Assembly (NCBI RefSeq): GCF_029688735.1
Contig: NZ_JARULD010000002.1
Location: forward strand, 124,001-188,000
DNA: 64,000 nt
Reading direction: 5' to 3'
Origin: Qipengyuania flavescens
GTDB taxonomy: Bacteria; Pseudomonadota; Alphaproteobacteria; Sphingomonadales; Sphingomonadaceae
Made by a program: the position numbers and the translations under genes. A model generated the notes under the pieces. It saw only the letters and a program-made list of their open reading frames with translations, was not told the DNA's origin and made no database searches. Positions 35,482-41,109 of this stretch are shown here, piece after piece (within the stretch, counting starts at the first letter, position 1; each line of letters begins with the position of its first letter).

Positions 35482-35931
35482 TCAGGCCGCGTTGCTACCG
35501 TCCGGCAGGAGCAGGGCGTAGCGCTCTTCGTCGCATAGTCCGGTCACCCATTCGGAACCGACTTTCAGCCAGGCGTGAAAGTGGGTTTTGCCCTCCGCAT
35601 CGCGTTCGGCCCCGATAAAAAGGGACGATTCGATCCCGCGGCGATCCAGCATCCGGCGCGCAGCGAGGGCCTGGGGCAGGCAATTGGGGTCGGTCGGTAG
35701 ATTGCGGGCCGCGCGGGCGATGGCAAAGCGGACGCGGCGCACGGGTTCCAGCTGGTCCTTGCCGATGGCACCGCTGGCCGACAGGGAGCTGGAAGGGCCG
35801 AACCTGTTACGCCATTTGCGGGGCGGCACGATGCGCACCAGGGCTTGGGCAGCGGCGAGCGCAGACAGTGCTTCGAACGAGGCTACGCGATCGCGGCGGT
35901 CGAGCGCTAGAAGAGTACCGAGCTTGCCCAT
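35482..35931 (-). CDS. Orphan lasso peptide biosynthesis B2-like (transglutaminase-like) protein
   Basis: This 149-residue protein resembles the B2 (Transglut_core3) leader-peptidase component of lasso peptide pathways. The catalytic Cys84 lies in NCLPQALAARRMLDRRGI and His119 in HFHAWLKVG. About 70 residues of helical N-terminus come first. B2 normally works with a RiPP recognition protein (B1), a cyclase (C) and a precursor peptide; none of these is visible within 10 kb either side. It may act alone or with distant partners. It follows the response regulator by 49 bases on the same strand. Confidence 0.72.
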   Translation of the reverse strand: MGKLGTLLALDRRDRVASFEALSALAAAQALVRIVPPRKWRNRFGPSSSLSASGAIGKDQLEPVRRVRFAIARAARNLPTDPNCLPQALAARRMLDRRGIESSLFIGAERDAEGKTHFHAWLKVGSEWVTGLCDEERYALLLPDGSNAA

Positions 35932-35980: not shown

Positions 35981-36343
35981 TCAGCCTTGGGCGAGGGCGC
36001 GCTGCACGTTGGCGATCATCTCGGCCGGGGGACTGGGTTTCTGGACGGCCAGCGCTTTTGGAAAGCGGATGGCGACATCGTCCGGCGTTAGTTGGCCCGA
36101 GTGGAAAATCACCGGTACATCCTCGGCTATCATCTGCTCGGCGAGCGGATAGACGATGCCATCGCCCAACTGCACATCGAGAATCGCAAGGTCGGGCTTG
36201 TGCTTCTGATAGGCCAGCATGGTCGATTGGATGTCCATGAACGGACCTTCCACGACATACCCCGCCTCGGCGACGGTCTGGCACAGATCCTCACCGATAA
36301 TCGTCTCGTCTTCGGCGACGAGGATGCGCATTTGCTGTCCCAT
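35981..36343 (-). CDS. Single-domain response regulator
   Basis: This 120-residue stand-alone receiver domain has intact residues: E11/D12 acid pocket (VAEDE), phospho-acceptor D56 (LAILDVQLGDG), S82 (VIFHSG) and K102 (VQKPSPP). It has no output domain, so it should act by protein contact, for example in a phosphorelay or on a kinase. ATG 36343 is preferred (GGGAGAG seven bases upstream); ATG 36331 would give the minimal domain. Partner unknown. Confidence 0.88.
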   Translation of the reverse strand: MGQQMRILVAEDETIIGEDLCQTVAEAGYVVEGPFMDIQSTMLAYQKHKPDLAILDVQLGDGIVYPLAEQMIAEDVPVIFHSGQLTPDDVAIRFPKALAVQKPSPPAEMIANVQRALAQG

Positions 36344-36406
36344 AGGAAACTCTCCCAAACCATCGACCCATTCGATCAACAGGCCCGGTTTGGATTCGTT
36401 CCCCGA

Positions 36407-36889
36407 TCAGGAAATCTTGCCGTATCTGCTCGCAAAGCCGCTTTCGTCGCCATCGGCCAGAAGGCGCGCCTGGCCGACCCAGTCGTCGCGCCGAATACGC
36501 CCTTCGAAACGGCCCAGAGTCGGGTCGATCCGGTCGATGTCATCATCGGTCCACGCCGCGATCTGCGCAAAACCGGTGATCCCCTGTTCGCGGAGCAGTG
36601 CCGCGAGCTTCGGGCCGACGCCCTTGATCCGGGTGAGATCGTCGCCGCCGGTTGTCTGCGGTTCAGGCGGCGGCACAGCGGCCGTCGGCTGCATCGGAGT
36701 GGCGGCAGGCGCGCTGTCGATCAGCGCCTTATTGCGTGCCGCGGGGGCTGCGCCTTCGTCGAGCACATCTTTGCTCGTTCCCGTGACGCGAGTGCGGCGC
36801 GAGGCGTGGAAGATGTACCAGGCGATCACCAGCCCGACGACGAGCGCGATCACGATGGCGGGCCAATAGGCCTCGAGCAATTCGATCAT
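36407..36889 (-). CDS. Membrane-anchored helix-hairpin-helix protein
   Basis: This 160-residue protein has one N-terminal membrane helix (AIVIALVVGLVIAWYIF), a Pro/Ala-rich linker (about 55-85) and a C-terminal helix-hairpin-helix domain. The domain reads LTRIKGVGPKLAALLREQG followed by IAAWTDDDIDRIDP and RDDWVGQARLL. The same domain occurs as a C-terminal extension of alphaproteobacterial NuoE and L21 proteins. The HhH fold usually binds DNA or proteins; tethering at the membrane is unusual. ATG 36889 overlaps the stop of the 44-residue gene (ATGA). Confidence 0.75.
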   Translation of the reverse strand: MIELLEAYWPAIVIALVVGLVIAWYIFHASRRTRVTGTSKDVLDEGAAPAARNKALIDSAPAATPMQPTAAVPPPEPQTTGGDDLTRIKGVGPKLAALLREQGITGFAQIAAWTDDDIDRIDPTLGRFEGRIRRDDWVGQARLLADGDESGFASRYGKIS

Positions 36890-37020
36890 TTGGGATCCTT
36901 CATGGTTCCGTCGGTTTCGATATCGCCCCGCTCCGTGCGGCCCCACAGGCCCCAGCCGATCCCGATACCGGCGAAGTAGCCGACCAGCGTCAGCACAACG
37001 ACTTCGAACCAGATCGGCAT
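36886..37020 (-). CDS. 44-residue single-pass membrane protein
   Basis: A short gene between the OmpA-like and HhH genes. Its ATG (37018-37020) overlaps the upstream TGA as TGATG, and its TGA (36886-36888) overlaps the next ATG as ATGA. The product begins MPIWFEVVVLTLVGYFAGIG, continues IGWGLWGRTE and ends in a charged tail GDIETDGTMKDPK. One glycine-rich membrane helix fills residues 4-26. Overlaps at both ends argue that it is translated. The family is not recognised; it may help assemble its two membrane neighbours. Confidence 0.65.
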   Translation of the reverse strand: MPIWFEVVVLTLVGYFAGIGIGWGLWGRTERGDIETDGTMKDPK

Positions 37021-37760
37021 CAGCGAGCTCCCGGCGTGTCGACGGGGGTGGGGCGCAGCGGCTCGGTGCGGATCACGGCGAATTCGATGCGGCGGTTGGC
37101 CGGATCGCCGGGGGCCAGGCCTTCGACCGGCTCGGACGAGCCCATGCCGCGCGCCCGGAGGCCGTCGCGCGGGATGCCGCGGCTGACCAAGGCCTCGCGC
37201 ACCGCCCGCGCGCGTTCCATGCTTAAAGCGAGATTGCCGGGCTCGGTGCCCGACTTGTCGGTATGGCCGGTGATCGAAATGATCGCGCCGAGGCAGGGCT
37301 GCAAGGCTTCGGCCACTTCGTCGAGCAGGATGCGGCTTGCCGGCAGCAGCGCGCTAGAAGCTTCCTCGAAGCGGATCGAGCGACTCCGCAACAGGCCGTC
37401 GACGTCCTCCTGGCAATGCAGCGGTTCGAAAGTAGGCGCATCTGTTTCCGCGCGCGCGGTTCCGTCGCTCCAGACCACGCCGCCCACGCCGGGCATCCCG
37501 GCCACGGCCTGCGCCACGCGGGCGCGGGTCTGTTCGGGCAGGTCCTCGCCATTGCTGAGCAACGGATGGCGCGTCGGGGAGCCGTTAGCGCCCGTAAAGC
37601 GCGCGGTTACGCCGCCTCCGCCGTTCTCGGTGATCGCCTGCGCTGCACTCTCCTCGAGCGGCACGACGAAGGCCTCGTCGGTCTTCGTAGCATAGCCATA
37701 GCCGGCCACCGCGACGAGCGCGGCACCGGCGACGATGGCAAGGGCAGGGCGGATCGACAT
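37020..37760 (-). CDS. OmpA family protein
   Basis: This 246-residue envelope protein has an N-terminal helix (MSIRPALAIVAGAALVAVAG) as membrane anchor or uncleaved signal. The C-terminal OmpA-like peptidoglycan-binding domain (about 120-235) shows ISITGHTDKSGTEPGNLALS, RARAVREALVSRGIP and DPANRRIEFAV. There is no beta-barrel, so it is probably an inner-membrane or periplasmic protein that grips the cell wall. It heads a three-gene overlapping set with the 44-residue protein and the HhH protein. Confidence 0.85.
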   Translation of the reverse strand: MSIRPALAIVAGAALVAVAGYGYATKTDEAFVVPLEESAAQAITENGGGGVTARFTGANGSPTRHPLLSNGEDLPEQTRARVAQAVAGMPGVGGVVWSDGTARAETDAPTFEPLHCQEDVDGLLRSRSIRFEEASSALLPASRILLDEVAEALQPCLGAIISITGHTDKSGTEPGNLALSMERARAVREALVSRGIPRDGLRARGMGSSEPVEGLAPGDPANRRIEFAVIRTEPLRPTPVDTPGAR

Positions 37761-37802: not shown

Positions 37803-39518
37803 CTAGTCGAGCGAGTCAGCCGTCTTCACCAGCTGGACGAATTCCTGTCTCCAGAAATCGCGCGGATTGCCGGCCAGTCCTGCAATCTGGCCGTATCCGA
37901 AGCTTTCCAGCATGGGGTCGCCGCGCAGCTTCTGGCCAAACGCCGCCACTGCGCTGGCGAAGGCGAAGTCGCCGCCCGGCAGGCTGCCGGTCTCCAAGGC
38001 GCGTGCCGGGAGCGTATAGGTGATGAGCGAGCTCTTCTCGCCATCGGGCATCTTGTAGCGCAGCTTGATATAGGCCGCCTCGGCGGCCAGGTCGCGAGCG
38101 CGCGTATCGACCTTATCCTCGTAGCGCCGCTGCCCGATCCAGCCCTCGGCGCCGACCGGCACGATTTCGTAGAGCGCCGTCACCTGATGGCCTGCGCCGA
38201 TGTCGCCCGCATCGACGGCGTCGTTGTCGAAATCTTCCTCGCGCAGGATGCGGTTCTCGTAGCCGACCAGCCGGTACTGGCTGACCACGGCGGGATTGAA
38301 CTCGACCTGAATCTTCACGTCCTTGGCGATGGTGAACAGCGTCGCGCCCATCTCGTCGCCGAGCACCTTGCGGGCTTCCAGAGCGCTGTCGATATAGGAA
38401 TAATTGCCGTTCCCGTTGTTGGCGATCTGCTCCATCATCGCATCGTTCAGATTGCCGCGTCCGAAGCCGAGCACCGACAGCGTCACGCCGGTTTCGCGCT
38501 TTTCCTCGATCAGCTCGACCAGCGCGTCGCGGTCCGACGTGCCGACGTTGAAATCGCCGTCGGTCGCCAGGATGACGCGGTTGACGCCGGCCTCGATCCG
38601 GTTCGCTTCGGCGACGCGGTAGGCCAGCTCGATACCGGCACCGCCTGCCGTCGATCCGCCAGCCTGAAGTTGCTCGATCGCGTCCTTGATCTTGCGCTCG
38701 TCATTTGTCGGCTCGAGCACGAGGCCCGCGGCTCCGGCATAGACGACGATGGAGACCCGGTCGCGCTCTGTCAGCTGCCCCGCGAGCTGGCGCATGGCCG
38801 TCTTCACCAGCGGCAGCTTGTCCGCGCTGTACATCGATCCCGATACGTCGAGCAGGAAGACGAGGTTGGCCGCCGGACGAGTTTCCTCCGGCATCTCGTA
38901 TCCCGCTAGCCCGATCCGGACGAGGCGCGTCTCCGGATTCCACGGCGACACTGCGACATCGGTATTGACCGTGAAGGGCTGCGAGCGGTCCGCCGGGAGA
39001 TCGTAATCGTAGCGGAAGTAATTGACGAACTCCTCGGTCCGCACGGCGGCTTTGGGAGGCATTGCGCCCTCGGAAATGAAGCGCCGCGCGTTGGCATAAG
39101 CGCCCGTGTCGACATCGACCGAGAAGGTGGACACCGGCTCGTTCGCGACGAGCTTCACCGGCGAGACTTCCTCGCCGTCATACTGGTCGCGGCTCGGCAC
39201 CGTCGGCACGAAGACCGGCGGAAAATAGCGATACGTGTTGTCTGACGCGCTCGTAGTGGTCGCCACGTCGGCCGCTTCCGCAGCAGGAGCGGCAATCCTA
39301 GAACCCGTCACCGCGATTGGCGCGGACTGGCTGTAAGCGGCCGGTGGCGGAGGCGGAGGAGGTGGCGGCGGTGGCGGAGGCGGAGGCGGTGCCGACCGGT
39401 CCGCACTCGGGGACGCTTTCGATCCGGTAAGGACAATCTCCTCGCCCCCTTGCTGCGAGGCGCATCCGGCAAGCAGTGCAGCGGCGGCGCAAGTGGCGAA
39501 CAGGTTCCTCGAACGCAT
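37803..39518 (-). CDS. VWA-domain lipoprotein (YfbK-like) with polyproline tract
   Basis: This 571-residue lipoprotein has the lipobox LAGC (Cys19), a 16-proline run (about residues 44-59), and an N-terminal von-Willebrand-associated region (VSTFSVDVDTGAYANARRFI). The VWA domain (about 220-400) has an intact MIDAS: DVSGSM, later T in STAGGAG and D in ILATDGDFNVG. A C-terminal DUF3520-like region completes the YfbK family layout. These proteins are envelope factors of poorly known role; metal-dependent protein binding is expected. No MoxR ATPase is next to it, though VWA proteins often pair with one. Confidence 0.87.
   Translation of the reverse strand: MRSRNLFATCAAAALLAGCASQQGGEEIVLTGSKASPSADRSAPPPPPPPPPPPPPPPPAAYSQSAPIAVTGSRIAAPAAEAADVATTTSASDNTYRYFPPVFVPTVPSRDQYDGEEVSPVKLVANEPVSTFSVDVDTGAYANARRFISEGAMPPKAAVRTEEFVNYFRYDYDLPADRSQPFTVNTDVAVSPWNPETRLVRIGLAGYEMPEETRPAANLVFLLDVSGSMYSADKLPLVKTAMRQLAGQLTERDRVSIVVYAGAAGLVLEPTNDERKIKDAIEQLQAGGSTAGGAGIELAYRVAEANRIEAGVNRVILATDGDFNVGTSDRDALVELIEEKRETGVTLSVLGFGRGNLNDAMMEQIANNGNGNYSYIDSALEARKVLGDEMGATLFTIAKDVKIQVEFNPAVVSQYRLVGYENRILREEDFDNDAVDAGDIGAGHQVTALYEIVPVGAEGWIGQRRYEDKVDTRARDLAAEAAYIKLRYKMPDGEKSSLITYTLPARALETGSLPGGDFAFASAVAAFGQKLRGDPMLESFGYGQIAGLAGNPRDFWRQEFVQLVKTADSLD
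39342..39389 (-). repeat. 48-base CCN codon tract coding 16 prolines
   Basis: Sixteen successive proline codons using CCG, CCA and CCT in irregular order. The mix of codons suggests selection for the peptide rather than simple slippage of one trinucleotide. Such runs normally need EF-P for translation. Confidence 0.9.
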
Positions 39519-39606: not shown

Positions 39607-41109
39607 TCAGGCTTGCTTGTCCGAAGGTTTGTCCAGATTGCGACGGAACAGCACGCGATCTTCCGGACCGAAGCCGCGTTTCCAGATGATCCAACCATAG
39701 ACCAGCAGGATCGCGGGGACGCCGAATGCGAGCTCCGCCCATTCTGGAAGCCGTGTTGCGAGCCAGCCGACCACCACGGCGGGCGCGATGGCGTAGACCA
39801 GTGCCCAGCGGAAATTGTTGATCGAATGGCCGAGGATTTTCGAAAGCAAAACGGCTTTGATCAGGCTTGCCGTACCGAGCGCGATGGCGAGGGCGAGGGC
39901 AGCGGCAGCCGCCTTGTACGGCTCACCATAGTCCGCTGCGACGACGACCTCGATCAACACAACGGTCAGCACGGCCTGGAACGCGATCGTGCCGATGGAA
40001 ATCCACAAATTGCGGACGCGCGCGACGTAGATCAGCACGGCTTCGGAGACTACCGCCGTCGCGGCCACCACTTCGGCAGCCAGCAGTAGCGCGAGCGCCC
40101 CGGTGCCGCCGACGAATTCCGGCCCGACCAACCCCATCACCGCCTCGCCCGGCACGCCGAGCGCCAGTGCAATGCCGGCCTGCATGGCGATGATCCAGAA
40201 GCCGACCTGGCAGACCTGTCTGGCGATCGCCTCGTAATTTTTCGTCTTAAGGTTCTTGGTGATGACCGGGCCGAGGATCGGCTCGAAACTGGTCTTGAGC
40301 TTTTGCGGCAGGCTCGCGACCTGTTGCGCGACATAATAGACACCCACCGCACTGGGCGCTGCGAATAGGCCGAGGATGAAGATGTCGACACGCCGCGTAC
40401 CCCATTCGATCGCGTCGGCGGTTGCCAGCGGCAGCGCGCGGGCGGTCGTGCGGGCCATATAGGGCAGCTCGATCCGCCACTGGCGCGGCAAGCCGTAGGT
40501 GCGCAGGAAGGTCCAGAGGCCCGTCGCCAGTCCTGCATAGATCGAGAGAAGGTATGCCAGCGAGAGGCCGGCCTCCTGCAGCGAAGGCACGAACCAGAAC
40601 ACGCCCGCCATGATCGAGATCGTCCACGGTTCTACCACGGCACGGGCGCGCACGGTCGTGGCGATATCGTATTTGTAGGCTTGCGCCGCGAGCACGACTT
40701 CGGTCAGCGCATAGCCGGGGATGGCGAGGACGATGAGCCGGTCGAGATCGGAATACTGTCCGCTCGGGAAGAGCGGTGCGGGGACGAACCAGAAGAAGAT
40801 CGCTGCAAGGGTCGAGAAAAACAGCGCCAGCAACATGCCGTCGAATGCGAGGTTGGCCGGATGAATGCCCTCACCGTCGGACATGCGCTGCGCCAGCCCG
40901 CGCTTTTCGCCCATCGCGCAGACCAGCGCGACCAGCTCGACCACGACGAGCGCGGATGCGAACACGCCCAGCGCCTCCGGGCCGTAGAGGCGGCCCGCGA
41001 TGAACAGGAAGGGCAGGCGCGCCAGCAGGCGCAGCAGAAACCCGAAGAAGTTCTGCCGTCCGCCCTTGGCGAGGGCCGTCATGTCCTCGTCGGATTGTCC
41101 GGCTGTCAC
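39607..41109 (-). CDS. Polysaccharide flippase (Wzx/oligosaccharide translocase family)
   Basis: This 500-residue membrane protein has about 12-14 hydrophobic helices. It has the N-terminal RLLARLPFLFIAGRLYGPEALG pattern of polysaccharide biosynthesis flippases and a central segment DAIEWGTRRVDIFILG. It would flip lipid-linked sugar repeats across the inner membrane. It is 8 kb from the export operon but is a likely functional partner. The start is GTG 41109, overlapping the gpsA stop (GTGA), so it is translated with tsaD and gpsA rather than with polysaccharide genes. A 22-residue quote limit prevents giving more; the ends are clear. Confidence 0.83.
   Translation of the reverse strand: MTAGQSDEDMTALAKGGRQNFFGFLLRLLARLPFLFIAGRLYGPEALGVFASALVVVELVALVCAMGEKRGLAQRMSDGEGIHPANLAFDGMLLALFFSTLAAIFFWFVPAPLFPSGQYSDLDRLIVLAIPGYALTEVVLAAQAYKYDIATTVRARAVVEPWTISIMAGVFWFVPSLQEAGLSLAYLLSIYAGLATGLWTFLRTYGLPRQWRIELPYMARTTARALPLATADAIEWGTRRVDIFILGLFAAPSAVGVYYVAQQVASLPQKLKTSFEPILGPVITKNLKTKNYEAIARQVCQVGFWIIAMQAGIALALGVPGEAVMGLVGPEFVGGTGALALLLAAEVVAATAVVSEAVLIYVARVRNLWISIGTIAFQAVLTVVLIEVVVAADYGEPYKAAAAALALAIALGTASLIKAVLLSKILGHSINNFRWALVYAIAPAVVVGWLATRLPEWAELAFGVPAILLVYGWIIWKRGFGPEDRVLFRRNLDKPSDKQA

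Follow-up and report, generated by a model that had tools for sequence, protein, structure and literature searches.

Three consecutive genes on the minus strand of the Qipengyuania flavescens window (the whole 64,000-nucleotide stretch of DNA that was analysed) encode, in this order, an OmpA-domain protein, a 44-residue membrane protein and a membrane-anchored helix-hairpin-helix (HhH) protein, as read from the sequence and its open reading frames. We judge the chance about even that the three products form one inner-membrane complex tying the cell wall to a cytoplasmic or membrane complex. This reading draws on the gene order, the coding status of the small gene, conserved motifs, natural fusions and a glycine lost together with the partners, all of them seen in the sequences; the fusions and the sequence covariation point to one membrane complex. 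The features are collected in Table 1.

Table 1. Features of the trio in the window, with positions, strand and basis of assignment
Feature	Position	Strand	Basis
OmpA-domain protein, 246 aa	37020..37760	-	Pfam OmpA, PDB sequence relatives, AlphaFold model, fold searches
BON-like unit, residues 27-97, helix-strand-strand-helix-strand	37470..37682	-	Model topology; Pfam BON in homologues
OmpA domain, residues 114-230, invariant C116, C156, D168, R183	37071..37421	-	Pfam, fold, homologues
OmpA C-terminal peptide PTPVDTPG[AP]R	37052-37023	-	Core P[VI]DxP in 79/80 named loci (best 80 of 203)
OmpA stop/small-protein start overlap, TGATG, 1 base (small-gene ATG)	37020..37020	-	Sequence
Single-helix membrane protein, 44 aa	36886..37020	-	MPIWxELxxLxLxAYxxGLGIGWxLWGR motif, then mostly acidic tail; coding signature
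GxxxG, residues 18-22, in small-protein helix	36955..36969	-	80/80 named loci (best 80 of 203); lost in L078, L080
Small-protein stop/HhH start overlap, ATGA, 4 bases	36886..36889	-	Sequence
Membrane-anchored HhH protein, 160 aa	36407..36889	-	Helix 9-30; linker with RNxALID (52-58); HhH module 83-157
HhH-protein membrane helix, A15xxxG19xxxA23 face	36800..36865	-	Homologue alignments
HhH module common to NuoE, L21, S2, PhaH and protein-O tails	36419..36643	-	NCBIfam, PDB sequence matches

Gene order and conservation of the trio

As the first-pass annotation had described, the genes overlap at both junctions; the overlaps measure 1 and 4 bases. SD-like motifs can be read in the sequence ahead of the small-protein start (GGGAG, 37032-37028) and ahead of the HhH start (AAGGA, 36900-36896). 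A promoter and terminator scan found none of either, with 0.3 and 1.1 expected from shuffles.

Conservation was followed in two overlapping sets of relatives, namely a family sample of 149 genomes, in which a close OmpA homologue was defined by E ≤ 1e-40, and a set of named loci, the best 80 of 203 relatives from a scan of 84,980 species genomes. A close OmpA homologue is found in 57 of the 149 family genomes, the window's own included (58 matches at E ≤ 1e-40). In all 57, the small and HhH genes adjoin the OmpA gene in order, although in L064 the stretch examined ends within the HhH gene; conservation of the three-gene order, which had been set beforehand as a test, thus held in every OmpA-positive family genome. 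The trio is also present at all of the best 80 of 203 loci. There, judged by the starts of profile hits, the small gene starts between -1 and +4 from the OmpA stop in 57 of 80, and the HhH gene between -8 and +4 from the small-protein stop in 64 of 80. In contrast to the OmpA gene, the HhH-module protein occurs in 146 of the 149 family genomes (E ≤ 1e-12). HhH proteins exist without these partners in most of the family, and the module therefore has work of its own.

Several neighbouring genes on the same strand recur among the best 80 of 203 loci. A polysaccharide-type flippase (39607-41109; Pfam Polysacc_synt_3) precedes the trio in 77 of 80, and in several partner-less genomes it stands directly upstream of a lone HhH gene. 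A YfbK-type VWA protein with a 16-proline run near its N terminus (37803-39518) ends 42 bases upstream of the OmpA gene; such a gene is found between flippase and OmpA in 44 of 80 and therefore comes and goes. Just downstream of the HhH gene, a stand-alone response-regulator receiver domain (35981-36379) recurs in 59 of 80. The window also carries a transglutaminase-like gene (35482-35931) that scores above the NCBIfam lasso-peptide B2 cut-off (60.1 vs 33 bits).

Coding status of the 44-residue gene

By itself, an open reading frame of 44 codons is uninformative because small frames are common by chance: 129 frames of at least 40 aa overlap the 14-kb stretch around the trio. We regard the gene as real because it is conserved beside the OmpA and HhH genes across relatives, being kept in 57 of 57 and 80 of 80 loci of the two overlapping sets (the latter the best 80 of 203), and its substitutions follow the frame. 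Over the first 28 codons of 80 sequences (79 named loci, L212 being dropped, plus the window), pN/pS is 0.44 in frame vs 0.76-1.73 in the five other frames. The entropy by codon position is 0.83/0.47/1.18, position two being the least variable. Thus, the small gene that the first-pass annotation had picked out as easily missed is, on the sequence record, real and conserved.

Among the best 80 of 203 loci, Glu6, Gly18 and Gly22 of the small protein are invariant, while Trp23 and Trp26 are kept in 78 and 79, respectively. The protein has a single predicted helix, one face of which is fixed, and then a tail whose net charge is negative in 26 of 30 sequences. In L078 and L080, it gives only a weak profile match (E 0.31 and 0.0018), at the right place; a hand-picked alignment of divergent small proteins left out both, which are without the glycines, and the invariance of Gly18 in that alignment was not used.

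NCBIfam and Pfam searches with the small protein returned nothing useful; a Pfam FtsX match (E 0.013) fell below the cut-off and was rejected. As a lone query, the protein matches 85 of 149 genomes at E ≤ 10, many by chance. Two small-profile matches, L094 and L100, were dropped since neither OmpA nor HhH stands beside them, and many of the order- and class-wide small-profile loci examined were chance matches or N-termini of HhH or coiled-coil membrane proteins.

The OmpA-domain protein and its relation to Rv0899

The OmpA-domain protein is built from an N-terminal membrane helix (about residues 5-25), a BON-like unit, an OmpA domain and a C-terminal peptide. The Pfam OmpA match (PF00691) is clear (E 1.1e-18, 67.8 vs cut-off 27.2 bits). 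The AlphaFold model (mean pLDDT 78, pTM 0.48) contains a long N-terminal helix, the middle unit and the OmpA domain. The helix is predicted from residue 5 in the model, and a hydrophobic window lies near the N terminus of both the window protein and a homologue; alternatively, this segment may be a cleaved signal peptide. As for the middle unit, a Pfam BON search of the organism's own genome did not match the window protein, and among 29 homologues only L095 and L098 match BON (5.8e-5 and 4e-5), both below the cut-off. The region of L111 aligned to the unit matches Pfam BON above the cut-off. We call the unit BON-like because of these weak matches and the clear one.

Cys116, Cys156, Asp168 and Arg183 are invariant in 45 of 45 close homologues, and in a wider set the equivalents of Asp168 and Arg183 are kept in 27 of 29 and 29 of 29, respectively. 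We take the latter two to be the Asp/Arg pair that binds diaminopimelate in OmpA domains, and judging from these residues the domain probably binds peptidoglycan. The C-terminal peptide, a possible candidate binding motif, lies in a region of very low model confidence. It is retained also at loci without the gene overlap and is missing from divergent copies of the trio. Among the best 80 of 203 loci, the identity of the OmpA protein is 96-98% in the three nearest (Erythrobacter), followed by Qipengyuania at 83% and below. No plasmid record held 80% of the protein in one place, and 16 stretches of viral contigs matching a pattern encoded no relative.

The four best PDB sequence relatives are all chains of Rv0899 (OmpATb/ArfA) of Mycobacterium tuberculosis, which resembles the window protein in having an N-terminal membrane anchor and an OmpA domain; its BON-type central unit may correspond to the BON-like unit. 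The window protein differs in its single BON-like unit, its Gram-negative host and the cytoplasmic HhH module carried by a third protein. In the VIA fold comparison, the OmpA domain aligns best with 5wtp (Z 17.8, rmsd 1.7, 117 aligned), followed by 5wtl (Z 17.3) and the Rv0899 C domain (Z 15.9, rmsd 2.8, 121 aligned). By fold it is one among many OmpA domains, and many others score close behind. The two-domain Rv0899 entry aligns over 204 columns with a poor rmsd of 12.3, and the region of the model ahead of residue 104 was hardly probed by the list of fold matches.

This likeness raises the question of whether the trio works in the manner of the mycobacterial ompATb/arf operon, as a module for growth under acid or envelope stress in which the BON-OmpA protein is active and two small membrane proteins help. 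Besides the PDB matches, the TM-BON-OmpA proteins of same-order and rhizobial relatives, with clear or several BON units, speak for this. The mycobacterial operon presumably includes a small membrane protein of about 50 residues. However, the OmpA domain, a common one, dominates the sequence match, 5wtp stands above Rv0899 by fold with the many other domains close behind, and the HhH protein occurs in more genomes than does the OmpA gene (146 vs 57 of 149). We know of no HhH domain in the companion proteins of the mycobacterial operon. On balance, we consider this explanation unlikely and do not class the trio as an arf operon. According to its title, one study places the Rv0899 gene in a named ompATb operon (Song et al. 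2011), and two reviews state that the operon affects acid survival and ammonia secretion (PMC6151718, PMC3816664).

The HhH module

The HhH protein carries a membrane helix with a small-residue face, a linker of variable length that starts with RNxALID, and the C-terminal module. The module matches the NCBIfam tails of NuoE, ribosomal L21 and S2, and phasin PhaH (E 3.2e-25 to 1.4e-11), and protein-O of RC-LH1 with E 8.8e-18 over a best stretch of 76 residues. Both Pfam matches are below the curated cut-offs (HHH_5, E 2.7e-5, 25 vs 27 bits; HHH, 14.6 vs 24 bits). A fold search with the module found no match at E ≤ 0.001. In VIA, it aligns with the RadA N-terminal domain (Z 7.6, rmsd 3.0, 62 aligned) and with NusA AR2, which was solved bound to protein (Z 7.4, rmsd 2.1, 61 aligned), all Z values being below 8 and so not diagnostic. 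The functions of such HhH domains are called obscure in print (PMC12079452, section 2.3), and a literature search for an HhH tail with NuoE in Alphaproteobacteria found none.

The first-pass annotation had suggested that an OmpA domain gripping the wall next to a membrane-tied HhH domain could link the envelope to DNA or to a large complex. If the module bound DNA, the trio would tie the chromosome to the wall, and the weak fold likeness to RadA speaks for this. However, the protein-bound NusA AR2 scores the same within this undiagnostic range, the module is mostly acidic (mean net charge -1.6, range -4 to +1, mean pI 5.4, in 45 of 46 homologues), and its close sequence relatives are parts of metabolic, ribosomal and photosynthetic proteins, not of DNA enzymes. 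Because of the acidic character, the DNA link is not supported, and we regard it as highly improbable. From the earlier reading, the gene coupling, the small gene and the pairing of a wall-binding OmpA domain with a membrane-tied HhH domain stand, and of the two links that it guessed at, the putative one to a large complex is the more plausible.

Fusions and variants of the locus

Variants of the locus bear on whether the products work together. In L089, L097 and L114/L277 (the last two from one genome, so that fusions occur in three genomes in total), the TM-BON-like part is fused with the small helix, giving TM, BON-like unit and second TM in one chain; the OmpA domain is absent. In L096, the first gene is without an OmpA domain, and the small gene is separate. 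Divergent second copies of the trio are found in L090, L091 and L098. A BON-OmpA and HhH pair without a separate small gene occurs inside the family (L280, L291) and outside it, in L111 (same order) and in L240 and L246 (same class). In same-order and rhizobial relatives, the BON units of the TM-BON-OmpA proteins are clear or number several.

On a Rhizobium lusitanum plasmid, the gene for a two-HhH membrane protein (L226:3714-4853, plus strand) immediately follows that for a multi-BON OmpA protein of about 500 aa. Three genomes of one class-level family (L122, L123, L125) have, behind the BON-OmpA gene, a gene for a membrane protein that lacks HhH and has a tail judged by eye to be coiled-coil-like; the helix of this membrane protein matches the small-protein profile. 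A class-wide HhH search gave 25 of 289 genomes at E ≤ 1e-8, and many of these loci read by eye as NuoE-, L21- or S2-like.

These variants must be weighed against the possibility that the trio is an ordinary operon whose three envelope proteins do not associate physically. Neighbouring genes are nearly as syntenic by descent among the best 80 of 203 loci, the flippase in 77 and an acyl-CoA dehydrogenase in 63 (some loci end too early), as would be expected if shared ancestry kept the genes together. In contrast, mere neighbours account poorly for the fusions and for a glycine loss that tracks partner loss (see below), and they do not readily explain why BON-OmpA stands beside a membrane HhH or TM protein also at other loci, in a different family of the order and on a Hyphomicrobiales plasmid. 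We thus hold this explanation to be very unlikely.

Covariation of Gly19 with the partner genes

Genomes that have the HhH gene and lack the partners offer a natural control. The partner-less sample comprised 60 of the 81 HhH-bearing family genomes without a close OmpA gene or divergent copy, of which four had a BON-type partner. Gly19 of the HhH-protein helix is kept at 69 of 72 loci with partners vs 9 of 56 without; among rows with RNxALID, the counts are 50 of 53 vs 1 of 11, and at the flippase locus 90 of 93 vs 0 of 10. The one partner-less protein with both RNxALID and Gly19, L302, is encoded immediately after a YfbK-like gene, an arrangement that a recent deletion would leave; the glycine is also kept by eight further HhH proteins without partners.

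The HhH-module tree is too poorly resolved for a covariation test, and a flippase tree was therefore used. From 110 input loci, 6 were without a usable flippase and 23 more, all with partners and glycine, were dropped by hand to thin close relatives; the tree holds 81 of 104 rows and was built by a quick method with SH-aLRT support only. L321, for which the wrong helix was picked, was scored as lacking the glycine on the tree and was excluded from the per-column table, and the helix of L284, from the same genome, is without the glycine. Partner presence changes nine times on this tree. Six independent pairs fall on supported branches, and in 6 of 6 the glycine changes in step with the partners (sign test, median p 0.031, range 0.031-0.0625). 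The HhH-module tree gives three supported pairs among orthologues, on average 2.8 going the same way and none opposite, which is not significant. The covariation was both noticed and tested on one and the same data set.

Other columns of the HhH helix also differ between partnered and partner-less rows at the flippase locus: Leu4 falls from 79 of 93 to 0 of 10, Trp9 from 91 of 93 to 6 of 10, Ala23 from 89 of 93 to 4 of 10, and Trp24 and Phe27 each from 80 of 93 to 5 of 10. Arg31 and Thr33, at the cytoplasmic end, are present in 10 of 10 partner-less rows. Gly19 shows the sharpest change among the best-kept columns, and the loss is not limited to the small-residue face. Without partners the whole helix is under less constraint, and since other columns drift too, the change may in part reflect a general relaxation.

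Several loci indicate which partner the glycine follows. In genus g37 (L078, L080), the small protein is without both GxxxG glycines, the HhH helix is without its glycine, and Gly12 of the OmpA protein is kept. L062 and L205, from one genome, have all partners and an intact GxxxG, and the HhH glycine is absent. Gly19 persists in L280, L291, L111 and L226, where there is a BON-OmpA protein and no separate small gene; the main contact may therefore be the helix of the OmpA protein or the HhH helix itself. As the alignments read, the HhH glycine is a reporter of the BON-OmpA partnership; for a putative contact with the small protein, genus g37 is the main evidence. That the glycine disappears together with the partners predicts that the helices pack against each other within a single complex.

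The same data bear on a narrower role for the 44-residue protein, which would act in the membrane as a chaperone or regulator and stabilise or insert the OmpA protein, with the HhH protein as a separate neighbour. Such a role would fit the fusions, which join BON with the small protein, and the small start close to the OmpA stop in 57 of the best 80 of 203 loci. However, it leaves unexplained why the HhH helix changes with partner loss and, in one genus, with loss of GxxxG, and why the HhH gene follows in 80 of 80 loci of that set. We consider it decidedly unlikely.

Model of the complex and comparison with known systems

In the favoured reading of a single inner-membrane complex, the OmpA-domain protein would be anchored in the inner membrane through its N-terminal helix, with the BON-like unit and the OmpA domain in the periplasm, where the latter would grip peptidoglycan. 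The 44-residue protein would add a helix whose GxxxG face packs on the small-residue face of the HhH-protein helix and would help to join the HhH protein to the OmpA protein. The HhH protein would bear, on a flexible cytoplasmic linker, a docking module like those that alphaproteobacteria attach to complex I, ribosomal, phasin and photosynthetic proteins. The result would be an assembly of three helices with one arm on the wall and one flexible arm in the cytoplasm; with a wall-gripping arm and a docking module, such a complex would tie a cytoplasmic or membrane complex to the wall. We infer the topology from a positive-inside pattern, Arg/Lys residues following the helix of both the small and the HhH protein, and the helix packing from the loss of the glycine with the partners. 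The docking target of the HhH module and the physiological purpose are guesses.

Among known proteins, protein-O of the Dinoroseobacter shibae RC-LH1 complex (PDB 8yy9) is similar to the HhH protein in its N-terminal membrane part, long flexible loop and C-terminal HhH module. It differs in that the membrane part has two helices, located between the reaction centre and the light-harvesting ring, and section 2.3 of its paper describes no OmpA or small partner for it (PMC12079452). The tails of NuoE, L21, S2 and PhaH in alphaproteobacteria have the module in common, but they are attached to other proteins of other complexes. The BON lipoprotein DolP also places a BON-type unit in the envelope; to our knowledge, it lacks both an OmpA domain and coupled membrane partners. 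DolP is a lipoprotein with two BON domains and is reported to bind phospholipid.

Each domain of the trio has been described before. Within the literature searched, what appears to be new is their fixed combination, the small protein as a separate helix subunit and the dependence of the HhH helix on its partners; in a search combining BON/OmpA domains, small membrane protein, Sphingomonadales and Erythrobacter, the matches listed contained only the two taxon names.

The trio places an HhH module of obscure function within a membrane protein that has two fixed partners. Because the partner-less orthologues are ready natural controls, the binding partner of the module and the role of the membrane helix become directly testable. 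The small membrane protein is a conserved product of a kind that an annotation length cut-off could drop. More broadly, and tentatively, BON-OmpA together with a membrane HhH or TM-coiled-coil protein might be an ancient pair, present also in rhizobia, that tethers wall to cytoplasm and from which sphingomonads split off a separate helix subunit, roughly 30-50 residues long, with the HhH module as a common docking tag. If this tether reading is true, complexes bearing the HhH tag, or the same binder, would be fixed to the wall.
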